Positions 1,217-20,443 of a stretch of DNA of 21,556 nucleotides are shown in pieces. Below the pieces are notes generated by a model. The model saw nothing but the letters and a program-made list of their open reading frames with translations. It made no database searches and had not been told where the DNA came from. The number at the start of each line of letters is the position of its first letter. The first letter of the stretch is position 1. Source of the DNA: Deltaproteobacteria bacterium (GTDB lineage Bacteria > Desulfobacterota > DSM-4660 > Desulfatiglandales > HGW-15); the NCBI GenBank assembly GCA_016926135.1, contig JAFGPH010000535.1, positions 1-21,556 on the forward strand, given 5' to 3'. The translations under genes and the position numbers were made by a program.

Positions 1217-1220
1217 TTCT

Positions 1221-2090: not shown

Positions 2091-2130
2091 CAGGATGCCC
2101 TTTTCTCTTCGGGGTTCAAGGCCATGCGGG

Positions 2131-2198
2131 GGCTGCCCTGAGAGACACCGTGTACCGGAGAAGAAGGCCTCGCTGGTCAGAAGGTCTTCAGGGCAGCC
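2131..2198. repeat. Inverted repeat between binding-protein gene and livH
   Basis: Perfect 11-base arms GGCTGCCCTGA (2131-2141) and TCAGGGCAGCC (2188-2198), separated by 46 bases. With small bulges the pairing extends inward (AGACC against GGTCT-like bases). In the minus-strand transcript this would form a stem between the binding-protein stop (2263) and livH (2090). No U-run follows, so it is not a classical terminator. A role in stabilising the upstream mRNA end or partial attenuation is inferred. Confidence 0.6.
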
Positions 2199-2262
2199 TT
2201 CCTGGAACTACCGTCACATGGCCTCTGCAATGTAATCGTTCATCGCCGTGAGGAATGCCTTT

Positions 2263-3522: not shown

Positions 3523-3871
3523 ATTGGCCCTCCTAGGATGATTGAAGGTGGCTTCAAAAAGTGTCTTTGTCGCTTGATTCATTACCGGGTGTTTTCATTC
3601 CTTGTTGCCGTGATTGAAGGGTTCACCTCCTTTCTGTCGTGTATATGGTGAGGGGGCGCACCCCGCTATCCTGCAGGGCGGTCCTTCAATACCCCATCTT
3701 GGGGTATCCAACCGATTCTCAACCCGGTCCGGCAGTGCGTGTTCGCATCCCTGACAAAAAGCCTGCCTTGGGCAGCTGTCGCGCAAAGCTTGCGACAGGC
3801 TTCCTCCTTGAGATTTTGATGCTGCTCCGATGGGAGGGTGAACCCTGAAGAAAGCAAGGTTCTATTGTCCT
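3523..3871 (-). other. Long untranslated leader of the importer operon
   Basis: About 340 bases without a convincing gene between the predicted promoter and the binding-protein start. It holds hairpins at 3777-3800 (CTGTCGC/GCGACAG arms) and 3689-3707 (ATACCCC, 5-base loop, GGGGTAT), and a GGGG/CCCC stem near 3653-3664. A perfect Shine-Dalgarno core AAAGGAGGTGA occurs at 3633-3623 but has no ATG at a normal distance. None of the stems is followed by a U-run. Function unknown; no known riboswitch is recognised. Confidence 0.45.
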
Positions 3872-3901
3872 ATCATTGAACGAAGTTTCCCTTTTGTCAA
3901 C
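3872..3901 (-). promoter_or_regulatory. Promoter and 17-bp operator for the importer operon
   Basis: On the minus strand GTTGACAA-AAG-GGAAAC covers 3901-3885. TTGACA (3900-3895) matches the sigma-70 -35 box exactly. Seventeen bases further on is AATGAT (3877-3872), a fair -10. The GGAAAC half lies in the spacer, as in the four sister sites. The site sits only 12 bases past the biotin carboxylase stop codon, so the importer can be both read into from upstream and started independently. Confidence 0.7.
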
Positions 3902-3912
3902 AAAAGAGAATT

Positions 3913-5397
3913 CTAAGAAGATGAAGGTTTTTGGGCAATGATCCGGGTGAGGACGGCGGCCGCCGAAATGGCGGCAATCCTCCTTTTGTCCGCGGAGAGA
4001 TGGGAGAGTTTCCTCTCCAAGGGTTTCTCCTGCTCGGTGATGGCCCGGATGTCGTCGATTAAGGTGGTTTCCCGGTCGATAAAATGGGTCTCCAGTTCGC
4101 CCTTCACAAAACGCGGGTTCCCCATCACAGCTTTGTGGAACGCCATGTTGGTTCGAATTCCCACGATCACGTATTCGTACAGGGCCCGCTGCATTCGACG
4201 AATCGTTTCATCCCTGTGTCTTCCCCACGCGATGATCTTCGAGATCATGGGGTCATAGTAAGGCGGGATGGTGTAGTGGGCGTACACCCCGTCGTCCACG
4301 CGAATTCCGGCTCCTCCAGGAGGATGGTAGGCTTTGAGCTTGCCCGGGCAGGGCTCGAAGTCGTTCAGGGGATCCTCGGCATTGATCCGGCATTCCATGG
4401 CCGAGCCGTTCATTCGCACGTCCTCCTGCCGGATGCTCAGAGGAAGTCCGGATGCGATTCGGATCTGCTCCTTAACGATGTCCACCCCTGTCACCATCTC
4501 GGTCACCGGATGCTCGACCTGGACCCTGGCATTCACTTCGAGAAAGTAGAAGTTCCCGTCTGAGAAAAGAAACTCCATGGTTCCCGCACCCTCATACCCC
4601 ACAAGTCGGGCCGCCCTTGCTGCAATGGCGCCCATTTCCGCTCGCATCTCGGGCGTCACGGCCGGCGACGGGGACTCCTCGATCAATTTCTGATGCCTTC
4701 TTTGAATGGAACACTCCCGTTCCCCCAGGTGAATGGTATTGCCCGTTGAGTCGCCCAGGATCTGGAATTCTATGTGGCGGGGATGGGGCAGGTATTTCTC
4801 CATGTACACGTCACAAAGACCGAAGGTGGTTGTCGCAATGGCCTGCGTGGATCGGAGGGCATTGGTTAATTCCGCTTCATGGGCCACGATGGTCATCCCG
4901 ATTCCCCCACCACCGCCGGAGGGCTTGATGATCACCGGGTATCCTATTTCCCTGGCCAGATCCGCCGCTTGCCCGGGATCCAACACACATTCCTCTGTGC
5001 CCGGCACCACAGGGACACCCGCCTTCCTCATTTCGCGGCGAGCCTCTATTTTGTCGCCCATGAGCTCAATCACCCGGCTCGATGGCCCGATGAACGTGAT
5101 ACCCGCTTGTTCACAAGCCCGGGCGAATTCCGGGTTTTCCGCAAGGAAACCGTAGCCGGGATGGATCGCGTCAGCCCCGCTCTGCGTGGCCACTTCAACC
5201 ACTTTTTCAATGTTGAGATAGCTTGCCCTTGCCGGCGGGGGACCGATACAGATGGCCTCGTTGGCATATTTGACAAAGAGCGCGTTCGCGTCGGCCTCAG
5301 AGTAGACTGCGGTGGAGGCAATGCCCATCTCCCGGCAGGCCCTCATGACGCGGACAGCAATTTCGCCTCGATTCGCGACGAGGATTTTCTTGATCAT
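3913..5397 (-). CDS. Biotin carboxylase subunit of an acyl/ketone-type carboxylase
   Basis: A cytoplasmic ATP-dependent enzyme that carboxylates biotin, 494 residues with a full biotin carboxylase fold. The N-terminal MIKKILVANRGEIAVRV and HPGYGFLAENPEFA are standard. The ATP-grasp glycine loop reads KPSGGGGGIGM, ERECSIQRRHQKLIEE gives the bicarbonate/ATP site, and NARVQVEHPVTEM holds the catalytic Arg-Gln-Val-Glu. Residues after about 450 form a basic, alanine-rich tail. The ATG overlaps the stop of the carboxyltransferase gene (TAATG), so the subunits are probably translated in step. In other organisms this layout is called pyruvate carboxylase subunit A or AccC. The acceptor is set by the partner, which is atypical, so no gene symbol is assigned. 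Confidence 0.95.
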   Translation of the reverse strand: MIKKILVANRGEIAVRVMRACREMGIASTAVYSEADANALFVKYANEAICIGPPPARASYLNIEKVVEVATQSGADAIHPGYGFLAENPEFARACEQAGITFIGPSSRVIELMGDKIEARREMRKAGVPVVPGTEECVLDPGQAADLAREIGYPVIIKPSGGGGGIGMTIVAHEAELTNALRSTQAIATTTFGLCDVYMEKYLPHPRHIEFQILGDSTGNTIHLGERECSIQRRHQKLIEESPSPAVTPEMRAEMGAIAARAARLVGYEGAGTMEFLFSDGNFYFLEVNARVQVEHPVTEMVTGVDIVKEQIRIASGLPLSIRQEDVRMNGSAMECRINAEDPLNDFEPCPGKLKAYHPPGGAGIRVDDGVYAHYTIPPYYDPMISKIIAWGRHRDETIRRMQRALYEYVIVGIRTNMAFHKAVMGNPRFVKGELETHFIDRETTLIDDIRAITEQEKPLERKLSHLSADKRRIAAISAAAVLTRIIAQKPSSS

Positions 5398-7148
5398 TAT
5401 TCCACCACCATCAAAACGTCTTCAGGGGCGACCATTTGCCCTTCATGGGCCCAGATTTCTTTGACCACGCCGCTGCGGGGAGAGTTGACATGTCTCCTCA
5501 TCTTCATCGCTTCGATGATGGCCACCAAATCCCCTTCTCTGACAGGATCACCCACCTTTGCTTCGATGGATAGGATTAGTCCTGCCATGTTGCAGAGCAA
5601 AGTGCCCGGAGGCAATTCCCTCGTGCTCTGGGTTGCCTCCCCTTTCTCCGCCTCTGTGGTCCTCTGCTCGCCGCCAACCCCGTCCCACTTCGGCGAGATC
5701 TTCACGTTAAATACTTCCCCATCCACCTCCACGGCAAATTCCGTGGGCAACCCTTCAGGCGGGATGACGGGCGGTTTCGCTTTGGCTACAGGCGGTGCAG
5801 ACGCTTTCTTGGTCTCGACGCGTTTCACGGGTTTTCCCGGGATCAGGATTTTGAGCAGCAGAGCGTCGTCGGACAGTTCCGCACCGATTTCGCGGCGCAT
5901 CTCTTCAATGGGTCTTTCGTATCCTTCGGGTTTCCAGTGGATGAATTCCTTGGCCCTGGGCAAGTTCATGACCCGGTCCCTCACGTTCTGATCGACCGGG
6001 ATCACCGGCTCTCCATAGAGTCCCATCACGTATTTGATGGCCTCATCGGTGAATCGTTCGTAGCGCTTGCCCGAAAGAATGTTCTCTATGGCCTGGGCTC
6101 CCACGATCTGTGAATACGGGGTGGCCATGACGGGATATCCAAACTCCTTGCGGACCAGAATCACTTCCTCCAGGATCTCTTCCAGCCGGTTTTCCATTCC
6201 CACCTCTCTGAGCTGCCGGGTGAGGTTGGTCATCATTCCGCCGGGCACTTGGTGCTCAAAATGAAAGAGGTCATACTCCATGGGCACGCCAATCGGCATT
6301 CCCTCTGTTTCGGCAATCTTTCTGAAATGCGCCGAAACCGCGGCCAGGGCGTCCTCATCGATGTCCGAGGAATAGCCCAATCGCTTGGCGTTTTTCAAAA
6401 CCGTCTCCGTGGCAGGAAGAGATGTGCCATTGGCAAGAGGGGCGACAGCCGTGTGCACGGTGGTCGCCCCTGATTTGATGGCCTCCAGATAGCACAGCGG
6501 AGCCAGCCCTGAATTGCAGTGGGAGTGGAATTCCAAGGGGAATCCATGGGCGTTTTCTCGGATGGTGGTGACGAGTTCCCTTGTTTGGTCAGGTGTGATC
6601 ACTCCTGAGGCGTCCTCAATCATAATCCGGTCAATCCATTCCTTCGCCTGCATCAACAGCCGCGTCTTTTGTGCCCAAACCTCCTGGGTATGGGCGGGAC
6701 TGGATGTGTACATCACGGCAGGCACGATTTCCGCTCCCTCGGCCTTGGCGATGCGCGCGAAGTAAATGAATTTCTCCATCTCGTACTGGTAGTCGCAAAT
6801 CCAGAAGCTCTTTATGCCATTGGCGACGGATCGTTTGATCCAGAGGGTGATGATGTCCCGCGGGGTGCTCAGGTCGAAGGAGGAAAGGCTCCCGATCTGG
6901 TAGGATCCGCGAAGAGGGGTCCGGGTGATCAACTTGGCCAGAGTTCTGATTCTCTCCCAGGGATCTTCGTTAAGATTTCGGACCTGCACCGTAAAGGCTT
7001 GGCTGCCCACCGTCGCAATGGAGAGGTACCCGACTTTGTCCATCGTTTCCGCAATGGGGACCATCTGGTCGGTTCTCATCGTGAACCCCCAAAGACTCTG
7101 TTGGGCATCACGCAAGGTTTGATCCACAAAATAGATCCTGTCTCCCAT
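5397..7148 (-). CDS. Biotinyl carboxyltransferase, pyruvate carboxylase subunit B-like with altered active site
   Basis: A carboxyltransferase with its own biotin domain, 583 residues. The N-terminal TIM barrel (about 1-290) belongs to the pyruvate carboxylase/oxaloacetate decarboxylase family: RDAQQS at 13-18 gives the metal-binding Asp14, and HSH at 208-210 gives the two metal histidines. The C-terminal biotinyl domain has EAMKM with Lys549 as the biotin site, after an Ala/Pro/Lys-rich linker. Unusually, the position of the carbamylated metal-binding lysine (normally IKDMAG) reads IEDASG with Glu178. The GGATFD substrate motif is replaced by GSQAFT, and the usual FR-FD motif is changed. A substrate other than pyruvate is inferred. 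The start at ATG 7148 (AAAGGA 12 bases before) is preferred because upstream in-frame sequence overlaps the promoter. Confidence 0.9.
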   Translation of the reverse strand: MGDRIYFVDQTLRDAQQSLWGFTMRTDQMVPIAETMDKVGYLSIATVGSQAFTVQVRNLNEDPWERIRTLAKLITRTPLRGSYQIGSLSSFDLSTPRDIITLWIKRSVANGIKSFWICDYQYEMEKFIYFARIAKAEGAEIVPAVMYTSSPAHTQEVWAQKTRLLMQAKEWIDRIMIEDASGVITPDQTRELVTTIRENAHGFPLEFHSHCNSGLAPLCYLEAIKSGATTVHTAVAPLANGTSLPATETVLKNAKRLGYSSDIDEDALAAVSAHFRKIAETEGMPIGVPMEYDLFHFEHQVPGGMMTNLTRQLREVGMENRLEEILEEVILVRKEFGYPVMATPYSQIVGAQAIENILSGKRYERFTDEAIKYVMGLYGEPVIPVDQNVRDRVMNLPRAKEFIHWKPEGYERPIEEMRREIGAELSDDALLLKILIPGKPVKRVETKKASAPPVAKAKPPVIPPEGLPTEFAVEVDGEVFNVKISPKWDGVGGEQRTTEAEKGEATQSTRELPPGTLLCNMAGLILSIEAKVGDPVREGDLVAIIEAMKMRRHVNSPRSGVVKEIWAHEGQMVAPEDVLMVVE

Positions 7149-7226
7149 AACGCATTGTTTTCCTTTCCAGAAACAAATTGTGGGATGGCAGACCGGGTTT
7201 GCCCACTGCCATTTCCTGCATGATCT

Positions 7227-7257
7227 ATAATGGGATGAATGTTTCCTTTTTGTCAAC
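7227..7257 (-). promoter_or_regulatory. Promoter and operator for the carboxylase operon
   Basis: Minus-strand GTTGACAA-AAA-GGAAAC covers 7257-7241. The -35 TTGACA is at 7256-7251 and the best -10 is CATTAT (7232-7227) with an 18-base spacer. The predicted transcript starts near 7220, giving a leader of about 70 bases before the carboxyltransferase ATG at 7148. It faces a second copy of the same element at 7381, so the 124 bases between them form a divergent control region. Confidence 0.72.
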
Positions 7258-7380
7258 CAAAAAACTCATAGCTACCCTTTTCGTGTCCTTACAACCGGAG
7301 AATGGAAAAGCGGGCGTGGTGTCTCAATGCTAACTCCTTCTCCTTGTGTTGAGAAACCGGAAGGCACCAATTATTTTAAG

Positions 7381-7410
7381 GTTGACAGATAGGAAACAAG
7401 ACGCTATAGC
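7381..7410 (+). promoter_or_regulatory. Promoter and operator for the phosphatase-thiolase-ligase operon
   Basis: GTTGACAG-ATA-GGAAAC covers 7381-7397, one base off the other copies. TTGACA (7382-7387), a 17-base spacer and TATAGC (7405-7410) make the best promoter of the set. The transcript should begin near 7417 and reaches the first start codon at 7483 after about 65 bases. The remaining bases between the two divergent promoters show no gene. Confidence 0.8.
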
Positions 7411-7482
7411 CATTTTTCGGGGTGGCGAAGGATCGGGTGTTCCCGAAACCCTTGTAACGGAGATCCGGGTGAAAGGGCATAG

Positions 7483-8076
7483 ATGGATGAGAATCCTCAT
7501 GTGACCTTTGTCTGCGTGAGAAATCGCGTGCGAAGCACTTTCGCGAAGTTCTACCTTGAGGATTTTCTTGGGAAAAGGGGCGGGAAAGCGACCGTCTCGT
7601 CAGCGGGGTTTGTGCCCCAGGTGCTTAAGGATCAACTGGCTGGGGCTGGGATACCCTTTCCGGTGCCCCTTTTCAATGCACCCATGTCCCGATTGACCCG
7701 TGAGTTCTTGCTTGAGAAGGGGATCAGGGTCCCTCAAGATTGGCGGTCCAAAGAATTGAGCCCTGAAATGATCGACCGATCAGACCTCCTCATTACGGCG
7801 CTTGGCGCGCAGAAGGACGAACTCTGTGATCTTTACATGGAGGCGAGCGCGAAAATCGTCTCCATCCGGGAACTGTCGGAGAGGAAGGGCTATCTGGTGT
7901 CTGAAGATTTCTCGGCCCTTCCTCTCGATCAGAACTACTGGTATTACGCGGAGGAAGAGCCAGGATACGTATCCCGGGTGCTTCGGGAGTGGGAGAAAAC
8001 CCTCGTGAGCGCCATCCCCAACATCACCCGGAGATTGGCGCTGAGTAGAAATGTGCCGGTGGCAAGGGACAAGTGA
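7483..8076 (+). CDS. Low-molecular-weight protein-tyrosine phosphatase / arsenate reductase fold protein
   Basis: A 197-residue cytoplasmic protein with the LMW phosphatase P-loop: FVCVRNRVRST near the N-terminus gives the CX5R-Ser signature (Cys11, Arg17, Ser18). VSSAGF a little further on matches the family's conserved strand. At 197 residues it is longer than the usual 130-160. The DP loop that normally carries the general-acid Asp is not obvious in its C-terminal third, which instead has LPLDQNYWYYAEEEPG. The ATG follows AAAGGG by five bases. It is the first gene of the operon driven from 7381. It may hydrolyse a phospho-intermediate of the pathway or a phosphoprotein, or it may only bind; the sequence does not decide. 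Confidence 0.75.
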   Translation: MDENPHVTFVCVRNRVRSTFAKFYLEDFLGKRGGKATVSSAGFVPQVLKDQLAGAGIPFPVPLFNAPMSRLTREFLLEKGIRVPQDWRSKELSPEMIDRSDLLITALGAQKDELCDLYMEASAKIVSIRELSERKGYLVSEDFSALPLDQNYWYYAEEEPGYVSRVLREWEKTLVSAIPNITRRLALSRNVPVARDK

Positions 8077-8167
8077 CGATGAACAAGAAGGCCTGTAGGT
8101 CACGTGCGGAATGCGTCAGTTGTTCCTTGTCACCTCTAACGCGTTACGCTTTGTTGGGAGATATTTC

Positions 8168-9580
8168 ATGGTTGGAATTACATCCTTTGCAGCCTATGTG
8201 CCTGCCTATCGGTTGAGCCGAGACGGGATATCCAAGTTCTGGGGAACGAGAAGCCTGGGAGGGGAGCGGGCGGTCGCGAAATACGATGAAGACAGCCTGA
8301 CCATGGCCGTGGCGGCCACCGTAGGCTGCCTCAGGCGAAGCTCGCTCCCCGTGGAAGGGGTTTATTTTGCCAGCACCACCTTGCCCTACCAGGAGAAACA
8401 GGCGGCTGCCTTGGTGGCCGCGGCCGCAGATCTTTCGAGGAAGATCCGAACCGCCGATTTCTCCGACTCCCTGAGGGCAGGGACGATCGCTTTGAGTGCC
8501 GCATACGATGCTGTGAAAAGCGGTACGGCGGAAAACATTATCGTGGCGGCAGCGGACTGCAGGATGGGCGAAGGAAAGAGCCCATCCGAGCAAATGTTTG
8601 GCGAAGGGGCGGCGGCCATCGCTGTTGGAAGGGAAGATGTCCTTGCGAGCATTGAAGGAAGCTATTCCCTGTCCAGCGAACTGATCGATTCGTGGAGGCT
8701 CATGGGGGACATCTTCACCCGATCCTGGGAAGAGAGATTTGTCATCACCGAAGGGTACCTGAAAACCATGGAGCAGACGATCTCCGGCATCTTGGAAAAG
8801 TATCGTCTCACCGCGAGGGATTTTTCAAAGGTGGTCTTTTATGGACCGGACAAAAAAAGTCATGCCCTTTTGGCAAAGCAGCTCGGTTTTGATTCGGGTG
8901 CCCAGGTCCAAGAGACTCTTTTTGATGCCATTGGGAACACGGGATCTGCAGCGCTTCCGTTGATGATCGTCGCCGCACTCGAAAAGGCGAGCCCGGGCGA
9001 ACTGATCCTGGTTGCCAGTTATGGAGATGGCGGTGATGCGTTCATTCTTAAAGTAACCGAAAACATCAAGATTCTCCCGGAAGATCAAGGGATGAGTGCC
9101 CTATTGGCGAGAAAGATGCCTATCGGATATGAGAGGTATCTGAACTGGAGGAATCTGGTGCCTCTCCATGAGATTTCCCGGCCTCCGTCGCCTTCCCCCT
9201 CCATCACCTGCTTGTGGCGCGAGAGCCGGAATGTTCTCGCCTTGTATGGAACGAAGTGCCGGCACTGCGGGCATCCCCAATACCCCGCTCAAAGGGTTTG
9301 CGGATACTGCCAGACCAAGGATCAATATGACGATTACAAATTCTCGGACAAAAAGGGAACCGTGGTGGCCTATACCATCGATTACTTGACCACGAACCGA
9401 GAGGCCCCTGCCGTTGTAGGAGTCGTGGATTTCGAGGGAGGGGGCAGGATGATGTGCGAAGTCACGGAATGCGAGCCCACTCAGATCAAAGTGGGAATGC
9501 CGGTGGAGATGTGTTTCAGGAAAATCGGCCTGAAGGGCGGTTTCCAGAACTACTTCTGGAAAGCCAGACCCGTAGGTTAA
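8168..9580 (+). CDS. HMG-CoA-synthase-like protein fused to a DUF35 zinc-ribbon/OB domain, catalytic residues replaced
   Basis: A 470-residue fusion. Residues 1-300 align by eye with archaeal-type HMG-CoA synthase (VGITSFAAYVPAYRL, AIGNTGS, ILVASYGDG). Residues 355-470 are a DUF35 rubredoxin-like zinc ribbon (Cys364, 367, 378, 381) plus OB fold. Against the archaeal enzyme the three catalytic positions differ: SESHPY becomes STTLPY (Glu to Thr70), ACKAGT becomes SLRAGT (Cys to Leu102), and VFHQP becomes VFYGP (His to Tyr225). A normal HMG-CoA condensation is thus unlikely. In archaea DUF35 bridges HMG-CoA synthase and thiolase in a channelling complex, and here the thiolase gene follows directly. 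A scaffold or acyl-CoA channelling role is inferred. The ATG at 8168 has GGGAG upstream; an ATG at 8111 lacks a usable ribosome site. Confidence 0.85.
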   Translation: MVGITSFAAYVPAYRLSRDGISKFWGTRSLGGERAVAKYDEDSLTMAVAATVGCLRRSSLPVEGVYFASTTLPYQEKQAAALVAAAADLSRKIRTADFSDSLRAGTIALSAAYDAVKSGTAENIIVAAADCRMGEGKSPSEQMFGEGAAAIAVGREDVLASIEGSYSLSSELIDSWRLMGDIFTRSWEERFVITEGYLKTMEQTISGILEKYRLTARDFSKVVFYGPDKKSHALLAKQLGFDSGAQVQETLFDAIGNTGSAALPLMIVAALEKASPGELILVASYGDGGDAFILKVTENIKILPEDQGMSALLARKMPIGYERYLNWRNLVPLHEISRPPSPSPSITCLWRESRNVLALYGTKCRHCGHPQYPAQRVCGYCQTKDQYDDYKFSDKKGTVVAYTIDYLTTNREAPAVVGVVDFEGGGRMMCEVTECEPTQIKVGMPVEMCFRKIGLKGGFQNYFWKARPVG

Positions 9581-9652
9581 GTAACTGAGATTGGTAAGCA
9601 GCCTAAGGGTCGGCTATGGTTCAGGCAGCCGGCTGAAAGGGAGAATGGGCAA

Positions 9653-10855
9653 ATGTGTGCCATTAAAGACAAAGTGGCCATCATCGGGATGGGCTGTACC
9701 AAGTTCGGGGAATTGTGGGGGAAAAGCGTTGACGACCTCATCACCGATGCGGCCTACGAGGCTTGCGAAGACGCGGGCGTAGATCTCAAGGATATCCAAG
9801 CGGCGTGGTTGGGGACAGTTTTTTCAGGGCAGACGGCCCTCAGTCTCTCGTCGCCCCTTAAGCTTCAGTACATCCCTGTGACCCGAGTGGAAAACATGTG
9901 CGCCACGGGCACTGAGGCGCTTCGGGGTGCTGCCTATGCGGTGGCCGCCGGCGCATGTGACATCGCCCTGGCGGTGGGGGTTGAAAAACTCAAAGACACG
10001 GGATGGACCGGCGTTCAGCCTGCAAACGTCGTCGGAAGAACGGCGATGGGGACGGCCGGCACGGAATTGGAGCTTTCCCCCCCGGGGATTTTTGCGCTGC
10101 TCGCTTCAGGGTACTTTCATAAACATGGCCTGGATCAGGACTACGGGAAAAGGCTTTTGGCTGAAATCGCGGTAAAGAATCACCATAACGGCAGCCTGAA
10201 TCCTAAAGCCCATTTTCAGAATAGAATCACTGTGGAGCAGGTGCTCAAGGCCCCCATTGTCGCGGCGCCCCTGGGCGTGCTCGATTGCTGCGGGGTGAGC
10301 GATGGCGCGGCAGCCGCGATCGTAACCCGTGCGGACAGGGCGAAAAGCTTCCGTGCTGACCCCATTTACATCAAGGCCATGGCCATCAGTGCAGGACCGG
10401 GACGTGATCCCTTGCTCCAGGATTATGATTTCGCCCATGTGGAGGAAAACGTGCGGGCAGCCACACTGGCGTATGCAGAGGCCGGCATCAAGAACCCTCG
10501 CAGCGAGATCAGTATGGCGGAAGTCCATGACTGCTTTACCATTCATGAGATGTCGGTTTACGAGGACTTGGGGTGGAGCAGGAAAGGGATGGCGAAGGAC
10601 GATATTGAAGCGGGAACCTTTCAACTCAAAGGGGATCTGCCGGTCAACACGGATGGGGGTCTGAAGTGTTTCGGGCATCCTCTGGGCGCGAGCGGCTTGA
10701 GGATGCTGTATGAGGTGTATAAACAGCTCCAAGAGAAAGCGGGACCCCGTCAGGTGAAGAACCCCCGCCTTGGGCTTACGCACAACCTGGGGGGGACGAT
10801 CTGGGGCGGCGTAGCCTGCATTTGCATCACAGGAAATGAACGTGACAGGAGCTGA
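9653..10855 (+). CDS. Thiolase, SCP-x/archaeal type
   Basis: A 400-residue thiolase that would cleave a beta-ketoacyl-CoA with CoA. All signature residues are in place: nucleophile Cys83 in ENMCATGTEAL, the EVHDCFTIHE segment, GGLKCFGHPLGASG with the catalytic His, and the final HNLGG. The divergent N-terminus (KVAIIGMGCTKFGE) and the HDCFT motif put it with SCP-x/archaeal-type thiolases, which usually work with a DUF35 partner; that domain is fused to the product of the preceding gene. The ATG at 9653 follows AAAGGGAGAATGGGCA; an ATG at 9645 is out of frame. It is separated from the upstream gene by 72 bases and from the downstream small gene by 4. As the only clearly intact C-C cleaving enzyme here, it probably sets the end product as acetyl-CoA plus an acyl-CoA. 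Confidence 0.93.
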   Translation: MCAIKDKVAIIGMGCTKFGELWGKSVDDLITDAAYEACEDAGVDLKDIQAAWLGTVFSGQTALSLSSPLKLQYIPVTRVENMCATGTEALRGAAYAVAAGACDIALAVGVEKLKDTGWTGVQPANVVGRTAMGTAGTELELSPPGIFALLASGYFHKHGLDQDYGKRLLAEIAVKNHHNGSLNPKAHFQNRITVEQVLKAPIVAAPLGVLDCCGVSDGAAAAIVTRADRAKSFRADPIYIKAMAISAGPGRDPLLQDYDFAHVEENVRAATLAYAEAGIKNPRSEISMAEVHDCFTIHEMSVYEDLGWSRKGMAKDDIEAGTFQLKGDLPVNTDGGLKCFGHPLGASGLRMLYEVYKQLQEKAGPRQVKNPRLGLTHNLGGTIWGGVACICITGNERDRS

Positions 10856-10859
10856 TATC

Positions 10860-11484
10860 ATGCCAAGGATTACCATTAGGGACTGGCCCCCGTATTCCCC
10901 CACCGATCAGAATCGACGCGACAGCACGGTTGTTGCAGCCAGACTGATGATGAACGCGGCTCTGACTGCGCCCAATGTGGGCGGGCTACCCATGACGGAG
11001 GGCGAAATCGTTTACGGCGAGGAGGAACAGGATGCGATTGCCCGGAAAATGGAGGAACTCGCCTATGAGAACGAGACGTGGAAACACATCTTTCTCTACG
11101 AGGCGGTCATGGCCCGGCAGGCCGACACCCTGCTCCTGCTGGGGAACACACGTGCCTACTCCAGCCCCTGGAACGGGAAGGGAGGATTATCGTCCCGCAG
11201 AAATGGAGAGACGGGGTCAGATTCTGCAGTATCCTCCGCTGTACATGCGCTTCACGGGTCGTGGCCGCGACCTGGGCCGCAGGGGGATCAACACAAAAGA
11301 CCGGTGGTGGGATCCACCCTATACCCGTCTTGAAATCGTGGAGGATGACAAGTGGGGGGATTCCGTTCTGGACCGAGATTATGCCATCTTTGTTGCGGCT
11401 GACGAGATTCGAAAGGAGAAGAAATGGAATCGCTTGAATTTGCCCAAGATCAAGGAGACCCTGGACAGCAAGAAGAGTCGGTAA
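10860..11484 (+). pseudogene. Frameshifted small gene, N-terminus resembling the DUF2148/COG4739 family
   Basis: The reading frame starting at ATG 10860 (AGGAGC eight bases upstream) codes for a protein whose opening AARLMMNAALTAPNVGG and following IVYGEEEQDAIARKMEELA resemble the N-terminal half of DUF2148-type proteins. That frame loses coding character soon after TLLLLGNTRAYSSPW. Another frame, one base later, becomes coding-like from about 11180 (MERRGQILQYPPLYMRF, then VLDRDYAIFVAADEIRK) and ends at TAA 11484. The junction lies in the purine-rich stretch around 11172-11186. A single-base indel would join the two parts into a protein of about 207 residues. The C-terminal part has none of the cysteines expected of DUF2148. 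Sequencing error, true mutation and programmed shift cannot be separated here. Confidence 0.55.
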
Positions 11485-11516
11485 TGCATCTTCTAGCCGA
11501 ATAGAGGAGGACACCG

Positions 11517-12299
11517 ATGATGCACCTCGCGGAAATAGAAGAGGCCATGTCGATCTACATCAGGCACCAGAGCCATCCCGTGGCCATTCAAATGCTGGCG
11601 GACGAGGATGGAATCCCTGGGGATGCGAAGAAACCATTGAAGGACTTCGGGGTGCCGTTTTCGCTTTGCCAGGCCCTGGCCCTGAGCCGAAAAGAGGGGT
11701 TGACGATCGTGCTGGACAGGGAGAGCCAGTCGTGTCCCATTGCGCTCAGCGGTTTGGGCTTTGTGCGGCCGGAGGCATTTCTGAGCGGGCAACATGTGCT
11801 GGCCCCTGTGAATCAGTCCCCAGAGGCGAGGAAGCAGGCTGTGGCATCATTGCCGAGGTTTCCCTTTGGAAAGTACCGGCATATTCTGATCTCCCCGCTG
11901 AAGACGGCCCGTTTTGAGCCGGACGTGATCGTATTTTACGGTAGCGGCGCGCAGGTGATGAGGATGATTCAGGCCGCCGTGTTTTCCTCGGGCGAAGCGC
12001 TGAATTCCACATCCACCGGCAGCGGAGGGTGCCTCCTGCCGATTGTCTCCCCCGTTCTGGAAGGGCGCTGCAAATTCGCTGTTCCGGGAAACGGAGATCG
12101 CCGATTGGGCCTGGTCGCTGATGGGGAGCTTTCCTTCGGCATGCCCCGGAACCTGTTCGAAGAGGTGATCAAAGGGCTGAAGCTCTCCCATGATGGAAAA
12201 CAGACCTATCCCATCAGCCCGGGGTATCTGAAGCTGGAGTATCAGTTGCCTCCCACCTATGGGGCGCTGAGAAAGGCGCTTCTTGAGAATTCCAAATAA
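11517..12299 (+). CDS. DUF169 family protein
   Basis: A soluble protein of 260 residues that matches the DUF169 pattern: HPVAIQMLADED near the N-terminus, PFSLCQALALSRKEG, SCPIALSGLGF, FEPDVIVFYGSGAQVMRM and GDRRLGLVADGELSFGMP. The family is common in anaerobes, often with reductive or one-carbon enzymes, but its biochemical role is not established to my knowledge. The start codon ATG 11517 has a strong GAGGAGG six bases upstream; a second ATG follows at once. It sits between the frameshifted gene and the CoA ligase in the same operon. No signal peptide or membrane segment is visible. I cannot assign a reaction. Confidence 0.8.
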   Translation: MMHLAEIEEAMSIYIRHQSHPVAIQMLADEDGIPGDAKKPLKDFGVPFSLCQALALSRKEGLTIVLDRESQSCPIALSGLGFVRPEAFLSGQHVLAPVNQSPEARKQAVASLPRFPFGKYRHILISPLKTARFEPDVIVFYGSGAQVMRMIQAAVFSSGEALNSTSTGSGGCLLPIVSPVLEGRCKFAVPGNGDRRLGLVADGELSFGMPRNLFEEVIKGLKLSHDGKQTYPISPGYLKLEYQLPPTYGALRKALLENSK

Positions 12300-12346
12300 A
12301 AGCAAGCATAATGCCGGCACGATAAATTCGTGAAGGAGGGTTCGTC

Positions 12347-13942
12347 ATGTCAGAGGGGAAAACGCCTTACGTACTCGGCGAACTGATCGAAGACAGGGCC
12401 AGAAGGAACGGCGAGAGGATTTTTCTCTGGTTCAAGGACCGGACATTCACGTATGACGAGATGAATCGCTACGCAAACCGGTGCGCAAACGCTTTCCTGC
12501 GGCAGGGCGTGGTGAAAGGGGACAAGATCAGCATCATGCTCCCCAACTGCCCTGAGTTCCTGTTTATATGGTTCGGTTCGGCAAAGGTCGGAGCCGTGGA
12601 GGTTCCCATCAATACGTCCTACAAGGGCGAGTTTTTGCGCCACCTCGTCGACCAGTCCGATTCAAAGGTCCTGTTTCTTGATCATGAATGGCTGGACCGC
12701 CTGAAACTGATTCAGGACGATCTGAAGAAGCTCAAGCAGGTGGTGGTCCTCGGAGGGCTCACAAAAGAGGAGGCGGCGGGTTCCAGTATCCCCATGATCA
12801 GCTTTGAAGAGTTTTTCGATGCCCCTGAGACCCCGGTTGATATCGAGATCTATCCCCACGATCCCCAGAACATCATCTACACGTCTGGCACTACGGGCGT
12901 CTCCAAGGGCGCTCTCGGCCCCCACAAATTCTGGATCGTGGTGGCGGAGCAGTTGCTTCCCCTTCGCGAGGGAGGCAGGGATGACATCTTTTACACCTTC
13001 CTGCCCCTCTACCACATGAACGGGCAATGTCTTACCACCATCACCGCTCTGCTTGCAGAAGGCCAGATGGTCCTCTCGGACAAGTTCAGCGCCAGCCGCT
13101 TCTGGGAGGATATCCGCAAGTACAAGGCGACCCAGTTCAACTACCTGGGCGCCGTGATTCCCATTCTCGAAAAGCAGCCCGAGAAGCCCGATGATATCGA
13201 CAATACGGTTAAGATTGCCTTCGGCGCCGGATGCCCCCAGGCCGTCATGGACCGCTTCGAAAAAAGGTTCGGTTTAAAGTGTATGGAAGGTTTCGGCATG
13301 ACCGAGATCGGCATCCCGGTTCACACCACCCTCTACGACCGGAGACCGGGCTCCTGCGGACAACCCCTGCCCATTTACGAGATCAAGCTCTTTGATGATG
13401 AAGACAGGGAGGTACCGCCGGGAGTGCCCGGAGAGATCGTGTTCCGCCCGAAGGAGCCCTTCATTATGATGCTTGAATACTACAGGATGCCCGACAAGAC
13501 CCTCGAAACGTTCCGAAACCTCTGGTTCCATACCGGTGACCTGGCAAAGAGGGACGAGGACGGCTACCTCTATTTCGTGGACCGGAAGAAGGATTCCCTT
13601 CGGAGAAGAGGGGAGAACATCTCCTCCTTCGAGGTGGAGCGTGCGATCAATACTCACCCCAAGGTTCTTGAGTCGGCAGCCGTTGCGGTTAAGGCTGAAA
13701 TGCCGGAAGATGAAGTGAAGATATGTGTGGTTCTCAAACCCGGTGAGAAACTGACTCCCGAGGAGTTGATCGCCTACGCAGTCGAAAGGATGCCCCATTT
13801 TGCGGTGCCCCGCTTCGTGGAGTTTATGGACAGTCTGCCCAAGACCCCCACGGAACGGATACAGAAATACCTGCTTAAACAGGCAGGCATCACGCCAAAC
13901 ACATGGGATCGTGAAAAAGCGGGGATTCAAGTGAAACGGTAG
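12347..13942 (+). CDS. Acyl-CoA ligase, AMP-forming (CaiC-like)
   Basis: A 531-residue class I adenylate-forming enzyme that activates a carboxylic acid with ATP and CoA. The ATP loop YTSGTTGVSKG lies at 178-188. The region FHTGDLAKRDEDGYLYFVDR and KDSLRRRGENISSFEVE are the hinge and core motifs typical of the crotonobetaine/carnitine-CoA ligase-like group. At the C-terminus the usual catalytic lysine motif (P-x-T-x-x-G-K) reads PKTPTERIQK, with Arg504 in place of the Lys; I recall the same change in several relatives, so it need not mean inactivity. AAGGAGGG lies upstream of the ATG. It is the last gene of the operon and meets the regulator gene tail to tail with nine bases between stop codons. 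It probably activates the pathway acid before thiolysis; exact substrate unknown. Confidence 0.92.
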   Translation: MSEGKTPYVLGELIEDRARRNGERIFLWFKDRTFTYDEMNRYANRCANAFLRQGVVKGDKISIMLPNCPEFLFIWFGSAKVGAVEVPINTSYKGEFLRHLVDQSDSKVLFLDHEWLDRLKLIQDDLKKLKQVVVLGGLTKEEAAGSSIPMISFEEFFDAPETPVDIEIYPHDPQNIIYTSGTTGVSKGALGPHKFWIVVAEQLLPLREGGRDDIFYTFLPLYHMNGQCLTTITALLAEGQMVLSDKFSASRFWEDIRKYKATQFNYLGAVIPILEKQPEKPDDIDNTVKIAFGAGCPQAVMDRFEKRFGLKCMEGFGMTEIGIPVHTTLYDRRPGSCGQPLPIYEIKLFDDEDREVPPGVPGEIVFRPKEPFIMMLEYYRMPDKTLETFRNLWFHTGDLAKRDEDGYLYFVDRKKDSLRRRGENISSFEVERAINTHPKVLESAAVAVKAEMPEDEVKICVVLKPGEKLTPEELIAYAVERMPHFAVPRFVEFMDSLPKTPTERIQKYLLKQAGITPNTWDREKAGIQVKR

Positions 13943-13951
13943 GCCCGGGAA

Positions 13952-14533
13952 TCAAGACCTACGGTAGTTGTACATCACGGCCAGAAGTTTAGCCTTCTTC
14001 TTTCCCAGGCTTTTGCCGGTGTGGGGCACCGCTGCATCAAAGTAAACGCTGTCGCCCTTTTCCATGAGATACCGATTCCCGTCGTAGATCAATTCATGCT
14101 TGCCCTCCAGGACATACATGAATTCTTCGCCCTCGTGCTGGAAAATGGCCTCTTCGTCGAAAGCGGGCTCAATGATGAAAGGCTCCATGTTCTTGCCTGA
14201 TTTATCCGAGGCAAGGGCTTCGTAGTTATATCCGTATAAAGACCCCTCTGCCAGAGACCCTACCACCTTGACGATCTTTCCCTTCGTTTTTTTGGTGAAC
14301 GAGATTTGGGTATTCTTCTTCTCTTGAGGGTCTTCTTCCAGAAGAGAGGCGGCATCCACCCCAAAGGCCATGGCAATTTTGTTGAGGGTGGAATAGGGGG
14401 GGGCCTTCTTTGCCCTCTCGATTTTTGACAGGTAACCCTTGGTGAGGCCTGTCAGTTCGGCCAGTTTGTCCAAGGTGATCTTTCTTTTTTTTCGCAGATG
14501 GTGGATGTTCCTGGCAATCAGTTCTTCGCCCAC
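13952..14533 (-). CDS. XRE-cupin transcriptional regulator
   Basis: A 193-residue DNA-binding protein with an N-terminal helix-turn-helix of the XRE/HTH_3 type at about 8-62 (LAELTGLTKGYLSKIERAKK) and a C-terminal cupin at about 110-190 (HEGEEFMYVLEGKHELIYDG, then EKGDSVYFDAAVPHTG). In this family the cupin usually senses a small metabolite. It starts at GTG 14533 with GGAGG seven bases before it. It is the last gene of the minus-strand unit from 17226, after the kinase ATP-binding subunit. It is the only regulator in the window, and its unit carries the shared 17-bp element, so it is the best candidate to bind that element and control itself and the cluster. Activator or repressor cannot be told, though the operator overlaps the -35 box and spacer. 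Confidence 0.9.
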   Translation of the reverse strand: MGEELIARNIHHLRKKRKITLDKLAELTGLTKGYLSKIERAKKAPPYSTLNKIAMAFGVDAASLLEEDPQEKKNTQISFTKKTKGKIVKVVGSLAEGSLYGYNYEALASDKSGKNMEPFIIEPAFDEEAIFQHEGEEFMYVLEGKHELIYDGNRYLMEKGDSVYFDAAVPHTGKSLGKKKAKLLAVMYNYRRS

Positions 14534-14570
14534 GAGTGGACCTCCGCAAAAGGTGTCTCAGGATGCTCTC

Positions 14571-15593
14571 TTATGCCATTCTACTTAGCATGAGATCGAG
14601 AATGCGGTCAACGGGCTTTTTCTGTTCGGCGATCACCTCTGCCCGGGTCTGCAACAGAACGACGCTCTCAGGGCACTGGAGATCCTGGTCCACGGCCCAT
14701 TCCGTGTCCTGGGGAACCCCGAAGTGCGCTTCGAGGACCTTCCCCAACCGGCCTATTTCTTTCACTTCTTGATCGTTCAGACAGAAAGCATTGCAACGAT
14801 CGGGGGAGGTTTCCACTTCAGCAACGCCGACCTCCTGACAGGTGATACACCTCTTTTTGCTGCCCAGTTTCATATCTACGATCTCCAGGCTTTCCTTGTC
14901 CAGGACATACACATCCGGCAGTGCTTCCCCTCCCACAACGCTTTCCCCCAGCCCCCAGTTGGCCTCGATGAACATGGTGGAGCGGTTTCCCGTATTGGGA
15001 TCCGCTGTGAATAGGACTCCTGCAGAGCGGGCGTTGACCATCTTGATCACGGCCACGCCAATCGGGTCTCTTCCCAGTGGCAATCCGAGCCGTTTTCTCG
15101 CTGACAGGGACCTGGCGTTGAAGGTGCTGGACCAGACCTTTATGATGTTCTTGATGAGATCGGCTTCTCCGATGACGTTCAAATGGGTTTCATATTGTCC
15201 CGGGTGGCTTGAGGCCCCTGCCGACCTGGTTGAAACGGCGACCCTTTCAACCTCACATTTCTGACAGATTTCGCGGTAATGGGACAGAATTCGTTCCTTC
15301 AAGTTAGCCGGCATCTCCTTTGATTCCACGATCTTTCGTAAATGCGCACTCGCCTCGTCGAAATGCGCAATATGCTGGAAACCATGGTCGATGTTCCCGA
15401 GATAGTCGTCTATCTCCTCGGCTGCTCCTGTTTCCGACATGAATCTCTCATAAGCCTCAAGAGAGAGGGCAAACCCCGGCGGCACCCGCAGGCCGATCTT
15501 CGCCATTTCGCCCAGATTGGCGCACTTCTTTCCGACCACGGAGTTGAACTCCTGACCCAGTTCTTCAATTCTGAAGGAATAATGAATCGGCAT
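14571..15593 (-). CDS. PEP-synthase-type ATP-binding subunit (phenylphosphate synthase beta-like)
   Basis: A 340-residue stand-alone version of the N-terminal nucleotide-binding domain of PEP synthase/pyruvate phosphate dikinase. Typical motifs are VGKKCANLGEMAKIGLRVPPGFA at the N-terminus, STRSAGASSHPGQYETHLNV in the middle, ARSAGVLFTADPNTGN, GLGESVVGG and near the end DTEWAVDQD with VLLQTRAE. There is no phosphohistidine or PEP-binding domain. The size and makeup match PpsB of phenylphosphate synthase, which passes a phosphoryl group from ATP to the histidine of the PpsA partner. That partner is probably encoded divergently at 17638. AAAGGAG precedes the ATG. Such enzymes act on phenol in known cases; here no UbiD-type phenylphosphate carboxylase is present, so the acceptor is probably different. 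Confidence 0.88.
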   Translation of the reverse strand: MPIHYSFRIEELGQEFNSVVGKKCANLGEMAKIGLRVPPGFALSLEAYERFMSETGAAEEIDDYLGNIDHGFQHIAHFDEASAHLRKIVESKEMPANLKERILSHYREICQKCEVERVAVSTRSAGASSHPGQYETHLNVIGEADLIKNIIKVWSSTFNARSLSARKRLGLPLGRDPIGVAVIKMVNARSAGVLFTADPNTGNRSTMFIEANWGLGESVVGGEALPDVYVLDKESLEIVDMKLGSKKRCITCQEVGVAEVETSPDRCNAFCLNDQEVKEIGRLGKVLEAHFGVPQDTEWAVDQDLQCPESVVLLQTRAEVIAEQKKPVDRILDLMLSRMA

Positions 15594-15655
15594 CTTGCTC
15601 CTTTTTCCCTCCCTTGCACTGATGAGAGTCCAGTGCTTTGGTTTCTCTCAAGTCG

Positions 15656-16360
15656 TCAGTTCCAAACCCTCTCCAATCCAGACACCAAGCTTTCAGAGGT
15701 CATCACCCAGCCGAAATGGGACTTGACATTGAGCAAGGTCGTCTCCTGCGTCGTGCTTGGGCCCGCATGGCTCACGGCATCTGAAACAAGAAGTGAAAAA
15801 AAGTCCAAGAAAAATGCGTGCCGAAGGGTCGATTCCACGCACAGGTTGGTCGCCGTTCCGACAAAGACAAGATACTTGATGCCAAAGGTGCCTAAAATGA
15901 GTTCCAGATTAGTTCCTATGAATCCGTCATATCTCTGCTTCCTGACGATGATGTCTTCAGGCTCTGGCTTGAGTTCTTCTATGATCTCAGCTCCCCAAGT
16001 GCCGTAAATATAGAATTTGTCTCTAAGCTCGGGTTGCTGATGAATCAGTCTCAGCCCTTTTGATTTCAGATTGTAGGGCGCATCGGCTGGACCTCTGTCT
16101 GAGAAATCAGGGCTGCATCCCATCAGGAGGTATATAATCCTGGCACCCTTTTTTCGGGATGCAGCAATGACCCTTTGGCACGGCGCGATAATGCGTTGTG
16201 TGTTGGAAATATCGTGACCGGTTACGTCGAAGTATCCCCCTTTCTTCACAAAGGCGTTCTGCATGTCCACGACGATGACGGCCGTCTTCAAGACATTGAT
16301 GGAAATAGGCTCCGGTTCCGCTTCGATCACCGTAAGGCGTTTCCGATGGTCATCCGCCAT
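15656..16360 (-). CDS. Isochorismatase-fold cysteine hydrolase (RutB/carbamoylsarcosine hydrolase-like)
   Basis: A 234-residue cytoplasmic hydrolase with the family's Asp-Lys-Cys triad visible: Asp32 in VVDMQNAF, Lys141 in VRKQRYDGFIGT and Cys174 in TATNLCVEST. The spacing and the segments KQRYDGF, GT-NLELIL and SHFGWVMTSE resemble RutB-type ureidoacrylate hydrolases and related amidases more than isochorismatase itself. The likely reaction is hydrolysis of a C-N bond (amide, carbamoyl or ureido). It sits 45 bases after the DUF2284 gene and 62 bases before the kinase subunit in one transcription unit, suggesting the pathway substrate or a side product has an amide-like group, or that it repairs an off-path product. 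The true substrate is unknown. Confidence 0.85.
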   Translation of the reverse strand: MADDHRKRLTVIEAEPEPISINVLKTAVIVVDMQNAFVKKGGYFDVTGHDISNTQRIIAPCQRVIAASRKKGARIIYLLMGCSPDFSDRGPADAPYNLKSKGLRLIHQQPELRDKFYIYGTWGAEIIEELKPEPEDIIVRKQRYDGFIGTNLELILGTFGIKYLVFVGTATNLCVESTLRHAFFLDFFSLLVSDAVSHAGPSTTQETTLLNVKSHFGWVMTSESLVSGLERVWN

Positions 16361-16405
16361 AACGCCGCCTACCTCACCATCGCCTTTCTATCTTCTGGCA
16401 ACCTG

Positions 16406-17065
16406 CTAACAGATGAAGACAATCCCTACAGACAAGGCCCTCGGCACTTCTGTAGGGTTAACACTTCTGTAAATCGGATAGACCTCCCAGCCGACCCTGG
16501 TAACCAGTCCGTAGACATCGATCCCTACGGCCTCCATGGACGGCCTGGCCTTGAGGGGGTAAGGACAACTGCCCCCTTCGAGGACGAGGCATTTATCTTG
16601 TCCGCAGAGGGCCCCTCTGCAACTGCCCTGACCAAAGCCCATGGCAAGGTAATATCCACTTCCAAAAGCAAGCGTCTCCAGGCTGCCCGTAACCTCGAAG
16701 CACTTCTTGGTCCAATTCGAGGCTACTTGGCGCTGTATGGATCGTACGGAGAAGTGGTCAACAGGAACGACCTCAAGGGCAAACACTATGGCATGATGGT
16801 ACCGAGACAAGGCCGTTCTCATGAATTCCGCAGAGGGGGTATGGGGTGGGCAAAAGAGGCATTTGGCATAGTTAGGGCAAAGAGGGATGGAGCACTTCAG
16901 TTTGACCCTCTCATCGATTTGCACCCAATCTGCTGGAATGACCTGGGCCATGGATGCACCGAGCTCCAATGTTTTTTGTTTGAAGTGATCGAGATCCTTT
17001 TGGATATGAGCACAAGGGATTTCTGACATGATGACTCGGGACGGACCCAGTTGACCACTCAACAT
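16406..17065 (-). CDS. DUF2284 cysteine-rich putative metal-binding protein
   Basis: About 219 residues with many cysteines arranged as in DUF2284: KCSIPLCPNYAKCLFCPPHTP gives five closely spaced Cys, and GSCRGALCGQDKCLVLEGGSCPYPLKARPS adds more before the family end motif MEAVGIDVYGL. An iron-sulfur or other metal site is likely; the family's reaction is not established to my knowledge. The start at ATG 17065 is chosen for GGGAG eight bases upstream. ATG 17029 (MSEIPCAH) is the next choice and has no clear ribosome site; a TTG at 17146 would extend it by 27 residues and looks less likely. It is the first gene of the unit that leads to the hydrolase, kinase subunit and regulator, with a leader of about 125 bases from the predicted promoter. 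Confidence 0.82.
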   Translation of the reverse strand: MLSGQLGPSRVIMSEIPCAHIQKDLDHFKQKTLELGASMAQVIPADWVQIDERVKLKCSIPLCPNYAKCLFCPPHTPSAEFMRTALSRYHHAIVFALEVVPVDHFSVRSIQRQVASNWTKKCFEVTGSLETLAFGSGYYLAMGFGQGSCRGALCGQDKCLVLEGGSCPYPLKARPSMEAVGIDVYGLVTRVGWEVYPIYRSVNPTEVPRALSVGIVFIC

Positions 17066-17197
17066 CCGCTCTTCTCCCGGAAGACTCGACGCGACCCTCT
17101 GCACAGAATGGGGGTATGGCAGGGCGACCGGGCCCGCAACACCCAAAGGGGGCCTTTACAGAGAGGGCAGGTCGCCCAGGGGGTTTCCCTCCACGCT

Positions 17198-17227
17198 ATT
17201 AAGAACACTTGTTTCCAAATTGTCAAC
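17198..17227 (-). promoter_or_regulatory. Promoter and operator for the DUF2284-hydrolase-kinase-regulator unit
   Basis: Minus-strand GTTGACAA-TTT-GGAAAC covers 17227-17211. TTGACA (17226-17221), a 17-base spacer and CTTAAT (17203-17198) form the promoter. The -10 is moderate (4 of 6). It diverges from the sister site at 17299, leaving 71 bases between the two elements with no gene. Confidence 0.72.
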
Positions 17228-17298
17228 AAAAAACGACCTACGCTGCGACCGTCAAGTTCCGGTTGGCTGGCGGATGAGCAGGGCGGGGATGCTTTTCT

Positions 17299-17328
17299 GT
17301 TGACAAAGAGGAAACAGAGGGCTAGAAG
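17299..17328 (+). promoter_or_regulatory. Promoter and operator for the kinase phosphohistidine subunit
   Basis: GTTGACAA-AGA-GGAAAC covers 17299-17315. TTGACA (17300-17305), a 17-base spacer and TAGAAG (17323-17328, 4 of 6) form the promoter. The element has the same phase relative to the -35 box as its four sisters. The transcript would begin near 17335, about 300 bases before the start codon. Confidence 0.7.
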
Positions 17329-17637
17329 AATAAGACTTCTCCGCAAGAGATTTTTCATTGCCCATTTCTTTTTGACATTCCGAACAGGCGCTCTGAATCC
17401 TGCTCTTCGATCGGGATGTTGGTGGTTTTCCACGGATGAGTGAGTCCGTTGATGTGGGGAGTGTGAGTCGGTATCCCGGCAGGGATCGCCACAGGTGGCA
17501 TCATGTGCTTTCCATCGGTTTTTTGCACTGAGTCTATGCAACGTGAGATCAAGGGGAGTTTGTCTCAGGCATAGACCTGTCAACCCTGAACCACATCCTG
17601 AAGGGATGGGTTCCAAAGTGTGAAAGGAGGAATGAAG
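17329..17637 (+). other. Leader of the kinase phosphohistidine subunit gene
   Basis: About 300 bases without a convincing gene. A stem at 17589-17612 (AACCACATCC against GGATGGGTT, one-base bulge, 5-base loop) sits ten bases before the strong ribosome site AAAGGAGG (17623-17630) and could affect its access. No known riboswitch or terminator is recognised in the rest. Confidence 0.4.
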
Positions 17638-20336: not shown

Positions 20337-20443
20337 GGATTTCCTTTCTGCTGCTTTCGAACAGGATTCTATCGCTCCAATAATAAAAATTGACACCTTC
20401 GTAAAAAGCCGTCAAAAATTGGTTTTCGACCGGACTTTAAGTC

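Follow-up and report, generated by a model that had tools for sequence, protein, structure and literature searches.

A recurrent 17-bp element in the promoters of one gene cluster

The stretch of DNA analysed here, 21,556 nucleotides of contig JAFGPH010000535.1 from a Deltaproteobacteria bacterium (GCA_016926135.1) and called the window below, carries genes for a branched-chain-amino-acid-type importer, a biotin-dependent carboxylase, a thiolase/ligase operon, a kinase split over two genes and an XRE-cupin regulator. We were interested in a short element that recurs in the promoters of these genes. An earlier note, made from the sequence alone, had described five 17-bp copies, and a pattern search for GTTGACA-N4-GGAAAC returned these five, all exact and with coordinates and strands as claimed:

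3885..3901, minus strand: operator site 1 (GTTGACAAAAGGGAAAC), in the promoter of the solute-binding protein/LivH/LivM importer genes; the -35 box TTGACA lies inside the site
7241..7257, minus strand: operator site 2 (GTTGACAAAAAGGAAAC), in the promoter of the PycB-like/biotin carboxylase genes; invariant in orthologous alignment A2 (see below)
7381..7397, plus strand: operator site 3 (GTTGACAGATAGGAAAC), in the promoter of the genes for a low-molecular-weight phosphatase (LMWP)-like protein, a fusion of a 3-hydroxy-3-methylglutaryl-coenzyme A synthase (HMGS)-like protein with DUF35, a thiolase, a DUF169 protein and an AMP-ligase; invariant in A2
17211..17227, minus strand: operator site 4 (GTTGACAATTTGGAAAC), in the promoter of the DUF2284/isochorismatase-like/PPDK_N kinase half/XRE-cupin genes; invariant in alignment A1
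17299..17315, plus strand: operator site 5 (GTTGACAAAGAGGAAAC), in the promoter of the kinase half with the phosphoenolpyruvate (PEP)-mobile domain; conserved in A1 except in the spacer

This number is well above chance, shuffled versions of the window giving 0.52 matches on average and none of 100 shuffles reaching five. The claim that there are no further copies held as well, since a scan allowing up to two mismatches found no sixth match in the window. Nor does any site lie inside an accepted gene: the one overlap, that of 7241-7257, is with a TTG-started stretch by which the PycB-like open reading frame (ORF) is mechanically lengthened. The translation offers a plausible ATG near 7148, and homology to this ORF in the related genomes G003 and G004 begins at its residues 27-29. 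The looser dyad GTTNNC-N5-GNNAAC, which the earlier note had fitted to the element, has one additional match at 5134, within the gene for the biotin carboxylase. Slightly overstated was the claim that every unit of the cluster has a site. It is correct for five units and fails for the enoyl-CoA hydratase/radical-SAM pair (20444-21217 and 19443-20396), which shows none at up to four mismatches in the upstream part that lies within the window. An Rfam scan of the region at gathering thresholds gave no matches, hence no riboswitch, and the region holds no tRNA genes.

Targets and conservation of the element in related genomes

Relatives were located with the kinase half at 17620-19320, which gave ten loci, seven of them at 76-89% identity; by title, six of these seven are Deltaproteobacteria or Desulfobacterales metagenome-assembled genomes, and one is a 'bacterium' only. 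The six relatives searched whole (G001-G006) contain the exact pattern 32 times (3, 3, 6, 6, 7 and 7 copies, respectively), against a single match to the reversed pattern. Counting as a target any homologue of a window gene found by tblastn within 2.5 kb downstream on the same strand, 26 of the 32 sites have one, in the form of a homologue or a relic of a cluster gene of the window. The genome scan that the earlier note had proposed was thus run in relatives, and its matches do cluster at pathway genes. Counterparts of site 1, for instance, lie upstream of homologues of the solute-binding protein in G001 to G006, and the 26 also include a second kinase pair in G006, 46% and 32% identical to that of the window.

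Two more of the 26 are relics in G001, matching PYC_B over residues 41-72 and DUF2284 over residues 28-119. Exact operators still precede these remnants (locus L054, 8176-8382, and locus L055, 7787-8607), and the cluster of this genome seems to be decaying and scattered.

As to the sites outside the 26, one in G002 lies at acetone-carboxylase-like genes (Hydant_A_N, Acetone_carb_G, Hydantoinase_A), one in G003 precedes a short-chain dehydrogenase with a Liv-type importer, and those in G005 and G006 precede UPF0261 genes. The exact site G004:C98:4352 sits 85 bases from a contig end, which leaves its target out of view, and an exact match within a long ORF (G005:C25:5571) we took as chance. The acetone/acetophenone-carboxylase-like set of G002 (L056, 5826-9185) is divergent from the XRE-cupin orthologue of that genome and has an exact site on both sides; a check of adjoining genes showed no hydantoinase-B subunit. 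At several loci (L102, L109, L111, L052, L056) UPF0261 (Tm-1-like) genes come after an XRE-cupin gene or an exact site, which suggests an unrecognised role of these proteins in the pathway. In G003 a UbiD gene lies next to a second kinase pair (L041); no exact site precedes it, and we left it out of the regulon.

Alignment of orthologous promoters showed how sharply the element is preserved. Alignment A1 covers the divergent promoters of sites 4 and 5 (five rows from four genomes, G006 appearing twice), and A2 covers those of sites 2 and 3 in five genomes. Against mean column identities of 49% (A1) and 50% (A2), the operator stands out as a conserved island: in A1, 25 consecutive columns are invariant over site 4 and site 5 varies only in its spacer, while in A2 the invariant runs over sites 2 and 3 span 18 and 19 columns. 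The half GGAAAC is therefore conserved in orthologous promoters, as the earlier note had expected, and with it the leading G and the spacer. Shuffles, reversed control, co-occurrence with the regulator (below) and invariant islands together rule out both chance and mere conservation of a -35 box. That a shared transcription factor acts on one regulon is strongly supported by the site counts, the targets and this promoter conservation, and the same targets bear out the proposed linkage of the importer, the carboxylase, the thiolase/ligase operon and both kinase halves. The finding of the earlier note is right, and is stronger than the sequence alone could show.

The element is built into core promoters

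All five window sites contain an exact TTGACA, a perfect -35 box. A -10-like hexamer by our own scoring follows 17 bp on in four sites and 18 bp on in the fifth, as had been claimed; the one predicted for site 3 is TATAGC at 7405-7410. For a wider view we assembled 38 exact sites from the window and the relatives, including two likely chance matches and excluding the kinase-promoter pair of G004. Their mean -10 score was 4.59, whereas shuffling the downstream bases 2000 times gave 3.47 on average and at most 4.01, and at the 17-bp spacing the first two -10 positions are enriched in T (19/38) and A (27/38).

The same set revealed features absent from the earlier note. Flanking T and A (27 and 30 of the 38 sites) lengthen the dyad to 19 bp, its centre is A-rich, and a T-tract lies just upstream of the operator, with T at -5, -4 and -3 in 34, 36 and 34 sites; this tract may be an UP element or provide an extra protein contact. 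The centre of the dyad falls on the border of -35 box and spacer, and a bound dimer would therefore cover the -35 box.

These promoters also invite an alternative, namely that there is no operator and that a special sigma factor, or just sigma70, reads the whole as an extended promoter; a TTGACA with a -10 at 17 bp is exactly sigma70-like and the upstream T-tract resembles an UP element, but we regard this as very improbable, given that sigma70 reads neither GGAAAC nor the leading G, that palindromes without TTGACA exist beside regulator homologues, and that relatives without an orthologue of the regulator have exact matches only at control level.

An XRE-cupin protein is the candidate repressor

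The genes around the sites are the following:

13952..14533, minus strand: XRE-cupin regulator, the proposed binder (HTH_3 plus Cupin_2; linked to the motif)
14571..15593, minus strand: ATP-binding half (PPDK_N) of a split PEP-synthase/phenylphosphate-synthase-like kinase
17620..19320, plus strand: PEP-mobile (phosphohistidine) half of the split kinase
3913..5397, minus strand: biotin carboxylase
5397..7148, minus strand: PycB/OadA-like carboxyltransferase that includes a biotin domain (shortened to begin at the ATG near 7148)
302..3582, minus strand: branched-chain-amino-acid-type importer (LivM-like, LivH-like, solute-binding protein)
7483..13942, plus strand: LMWP-like protein, HMGS-like/DUF35 fusion, thiolase, truncated DUF2148-type ORF, DUF169 protein, AMP-forming ligase
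15656..17146, minus strand: isochorismatase-like and DUF2284 proteins, at the front of the XRE-cupin gene run

A scan of 18 window ORFs found a helix-turn-helix (HTH) domain in the XRE-cupin protein alone. This protein has the build of its class, an N-terminal HTH of the Cro/C1 type (HTH_3, E 1.3e-12, residues 12-61) and a C-terminal cupin domain (Cupin_2, E 2.9e-16, residues 121-186), and its sequence matches the solved HTH_3 regulator 1y9q over residues 5-176 (E 3.6e-11). Judged by sequence, the palindromic operator in core promoters of neighbouring metabolic genes fits this class too. The gaps in the XRE-cupin gene run measure only 37-62 bases, so the run is likely co-transcribed and the regulator, in consequence, autoregulated.

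We consider it highly probable that the five sites are operators of a dimeric, autoregulated XRE-cupin repressor, the protein encoded at 13952-14533, which would control the cluster as a unit. An XRE-cupin dimer would bind the dyad (T)GTTGAC-N5-GGAAAC(A), in which the downstream GGAAAC would be the ideal half-site, the ideal palindrome being GTTTCC-N5-GGAAAC, and the upstream half would be bent towards GTTGAC, also supplying the perfect sigma70 -35 box. With both -35 box and spacer under the bound protein, RNA polymerase would be kept out until the cupin domain senses a pathway ligand and the protein is released. Release would induce the genes of the importer, the split kinase, the biotin carboxylase and the thiolase/ligase operon jointly, along with the regulator's own gene run. 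We infer binding, repression, ligand and pathway alike, repression because of the position of the sites and the precedent of other XRE-cupin proteins.

Co-occurrence of regulator and operator speaks for this assignment. Across 197 relatives, with at least 70% identity as the threshold for an orthologue, the seven genomes that have one hold 28 of 52 exact matches (6, 6, 7, 7, 1, 1 and 0), and G001, with a 56% homologue, holds a further three. The 189 genomes left account for the remaining 21 matches, never more than one in a genome; about 25 would be expected there from the reversed pattern, which has 26 matches in all 197. Outside orthologue-bearing genomes the pattern is at background; G044, which has no orthologue at this threshold, holds a single match (G044:C236). 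Orthologues themselves are rare, only 6 of 395 genomes of the phylum matching at E<=1e-60. In G002, moreover, the orthologue lies apart from the kinase cluster and has its own exact site 306 bp upstream. Together with the control on paralogues described below, co-occurrence and the G002 case support the XRE-cupin protein as the predicted binding factor.

As for the sign of control, a perfect -35 box with a fair -10 would make strong promoters in need of repression. The XRE-cupin protein might instead bind and activate transcription, and the fixed orientation of the site relative to the -35 box is something that an activator contact could also require. We think this improbable: a dimer on the dyad would sit over -35 box and spacer, in the way of polymerase; most activator-dependent promoters, as is generally known, lack such a consensus -35; and all XRE-cupin regulators studied in Pseudomonas aeruginosa are, in the part of PMC7901475 available to us, inhibitors. 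According to the same part of that paper, these regulators recognise palindromes located in core promoters, and their inhibition of neighbouring metabolic genes is most likely due to occlusion.

Dyads beside diverged regulators, and the case for another factor

Twelve diverged homologues of the XRE-cupin protein took the test beyond the training sites. A matrix from 32 close-clade sites was symmetrised and used to scan both 600-bp flanks of each homologue; it gave a best match at p<=1/500 beside seven of them (G036, G296, G272a, G272b, G051a, G051b and G001) and weaker matches beside G194 (7/500) and G410 (14/500). In the paralogue control, which comprised 23 XRE-cupins of six genomes (24 loci were given, one without a tblastn match), one paralogue reached 1/300 and another 4/300. 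The dyads beside the diverged homologues read GTTTCC-N5-GGAAAC (G001, G051), GTTTCC-N5-GGATAC (G272, G296) or similar, and such palindromic forms back the reading of the window element as a partial dyad. They lie upstream of the regulator gene in G272a and G296, and between the regulator and the next gene on the same strand in G272b and G051.

Several observations weigh against the XRE-cupin protein as the binder. Genome G057 has a 73% orthologue and no exact site, and at up to one mismatch it gives one match against six for the reversed control; its cluster contig is cut at the kinase gene. G069 and G085 have a single exact site each. No significant match was found in the 600-bp flanks of the homologues in G138, G030 and G065 (124, 153 and 443 of 500), and the match in G036 belongs to a palindrome abundant in that genome, which leaves six matches in about three lineages once it is discounted. 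The paralogue that reached 1/300 (L066) is above chance level. In G051, and in G001 just past the gene, the dyad stands downstream of the regulator gene, and the full palindrome is not enriched across the G001 genome (one match, control one).

An alternative is that the operator is real and bound by another factor, encoded outside the window, with the XRE-cupin protein as a passenger. G057 is in its favour, as is G001, which keeps three exact sites with only a 56% homologue, and binding by the XRE-cupin protein is here a prediction from sequence. Even so, we judge another factor unlikely. In other clusters, diverged XRE-cupin homologues have dyads of the same kind next to them, and most paralogues do not; the orthologue of G002 is separated from the kinase cluster and still has a site of its own; the two odd sites of G001 precede the PYC_B and DUF2284 relics, as in a decaying cluster; and the half-site length and N5 centre fit the published site of the XRE-cupin regulator PsdR, TTAAG-N5-CTTAA in the available part of PMC10965056.

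A hint of covariation between recognition helix and half-site also emerged, suggestive only. In G036, G030 and G065, GTTGACA-N4-GGACAC stands in front of kinase/XRE-cupin gene runs and the recognition helix reads TKSY or TRSY, where the others have KGY or RGY. A Gly-to-Ser change in the helix may thus go with the change from GGAAAC to GGACAC. The hint is weakened by the apparent close relationship, hence shared ancestry, of G036 and G030, and by the occurrence of GGACAC forms, whatever their context, in G272 and G410 too, where the homologues retain Gly.

As a genome-wide search key GTTTCC-N5-GGAAAC proved unhelpful, most of 17 genomes holding it as often as the control or nearly so. G030 and G036 hold 11 copies each (control 0), many with a CCGG-containing centre, and these probably are an unrelated dispersed repeat.

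Comparison with known systems and the probable pathway

In the available parts of PMC7901475 and PMC10965056, the P. aeruginosa regulators PsdR, PauR and ErfA resemble the proposed system in joining an HTH to a cupin domain and in controlling neighbouring uptake or catabolic genes from a core-promoter palindrome. The 5-bp dyad centre is shared with PsdR (PMC10965056), and the multi-site, autoregulated regulon with PauR. The window differs from them in its half-site, GGAAAC rather than CTTAA, in the merging of one half with the -35 box at all exact sites, and in the regulon itself, a kinase/carboxylase pathway of Desulfobacterota-type bacteria. Identity with PuuR was rejected, the best NCBIfam match (NF007408) scoring 56.7 bits, far below its cut-off of 211 bits. 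A term search of the main text of an XRE-motif survey (PMC12565409) found no GGAAAC, GTTTCC, GTTTC or GAAAC.

Phenylphosphate-synthase-like kinases are built from a PPDK_N half and a PEP-mobile half, each encoded by a gene of its own. The parts of PMC6114531 and PMC9618137 available to us agree on this split; the former describes phenylphosphate synthase of Desulfatiglans anilini, whose phosphohistidine and ATP halves, related to pyruvate, water dikinase, are separated as in the window. In contrast to the phenol degraders, the window has no UbiD-type phenylphosphate carboxylase among its genes; no regulator is named in that part of PMC6114531.

A close parallel is the Hpe pathway, in which, in the available text of PMC9618137, 4-hydroxyacetophenone or acetovanillone is first phosphorylated by a split kinase; the product is then carboxylated by a biotin enzyme, and CoA ligation follows. 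Like Hpe, with its HpeHI kinase and HpeCBA biotin carboxylase, the window joins a two-part phenylphosphate-synthase-like kinase, a biotin-dependent carboxylase and a CoA ligase in one co-regulated cluster; by domain content and shared operator, split dikinase and carboxylase fall in one predicted regulon. The likeness is one of domain content, and unlike Hpe the window has a two-gene PycA/PycB-type carboxylase, the HMGS-DUF35 fusion with a thiolase, and five separate promoters. The pathway probably comprises phosphorylation and carboxylation of a ketone or hydroxyphenyl ketone. Such a compound is our best guess for the substrate and inducer family, because the window has the Hpe order of parts plus the HMGS-DUF35 fusion and thiolase for thiolytic cleavage. 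Two acetone-using sulfate reducers take another, formylation-type route, as the available part of PMC7888143 has it.

Two genes of the thiolase/ligase run deserve mention. The first (7483-8076) has a partial low-molecular-weight phosphatase match (PF01451), and its product could, as an idea only, play the role of the phosphatase HpeD. The ORF at 10836 (10836-11516; 165 aa) matches only the first ~70% of DUF2148 homologues of 252-292 aa, and an Fe-S/flavin oxidoreductase of 770-783 aa that follows DUF2148 in G003 (L042) and G051 (L105) is missing before DUF169 in the window; either a deletion in the organism or an assembly fault would account for both.

Implications

Very likely, the importer, the split kinase, the biotin carboxylase and the thiolase/ligase operon form a regulon under one XRE-cupin switch. 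The kind of system is known, that of the XRE-cupin repressors; operator, regulator and regulon appear undescribed within the reach of full-text searches of open PMC papers, a coverage that leaves out subscription journals; these searches brought up no account of motif or regulon. A group of loosely connected and mostly unnamed genes thereby becomes a single predicted regulon, its regulator named and its operator precisely defined, in lineages represented here by metagenome-assembled genomes only, and the operator offers a clear case of a half-site that shares bases with a consensus -35 box.

More tentatively, one XRE-cupin class might serve as a common switch for several carbonyl- or phenol-activating chemistries in Desulfobacterota-type bacteria, a possibility to which we give somewhat less than even chances. 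These would include the split kinase with biotin carboxylase (window, G003-G006), the acetone/acetophenone-carboxylase-like operon of G002 and other split-kinase clusters (G065, G272, the second pair of G006). They would have in common the operator that shares its bases with the -35 box, the joint change of helix and half-site (TKGY with GGAAAC, TKSY/TRSY with GGACAC) and, as effector, a ketone, a hydroxyphenyl ketone or a CoA product.

The operator can serve as a search key, sites found by pattern alone pointing to UPF0261 proteins, short-chain dehydrogenases, a beta-keto acid cleavage enzyme, the acetone-carboxylase-like operon and a second split kinase. Such further genes would help to define what appears to be an undescribed anaerobic route for ketones or hydroxyphenyl ketones.

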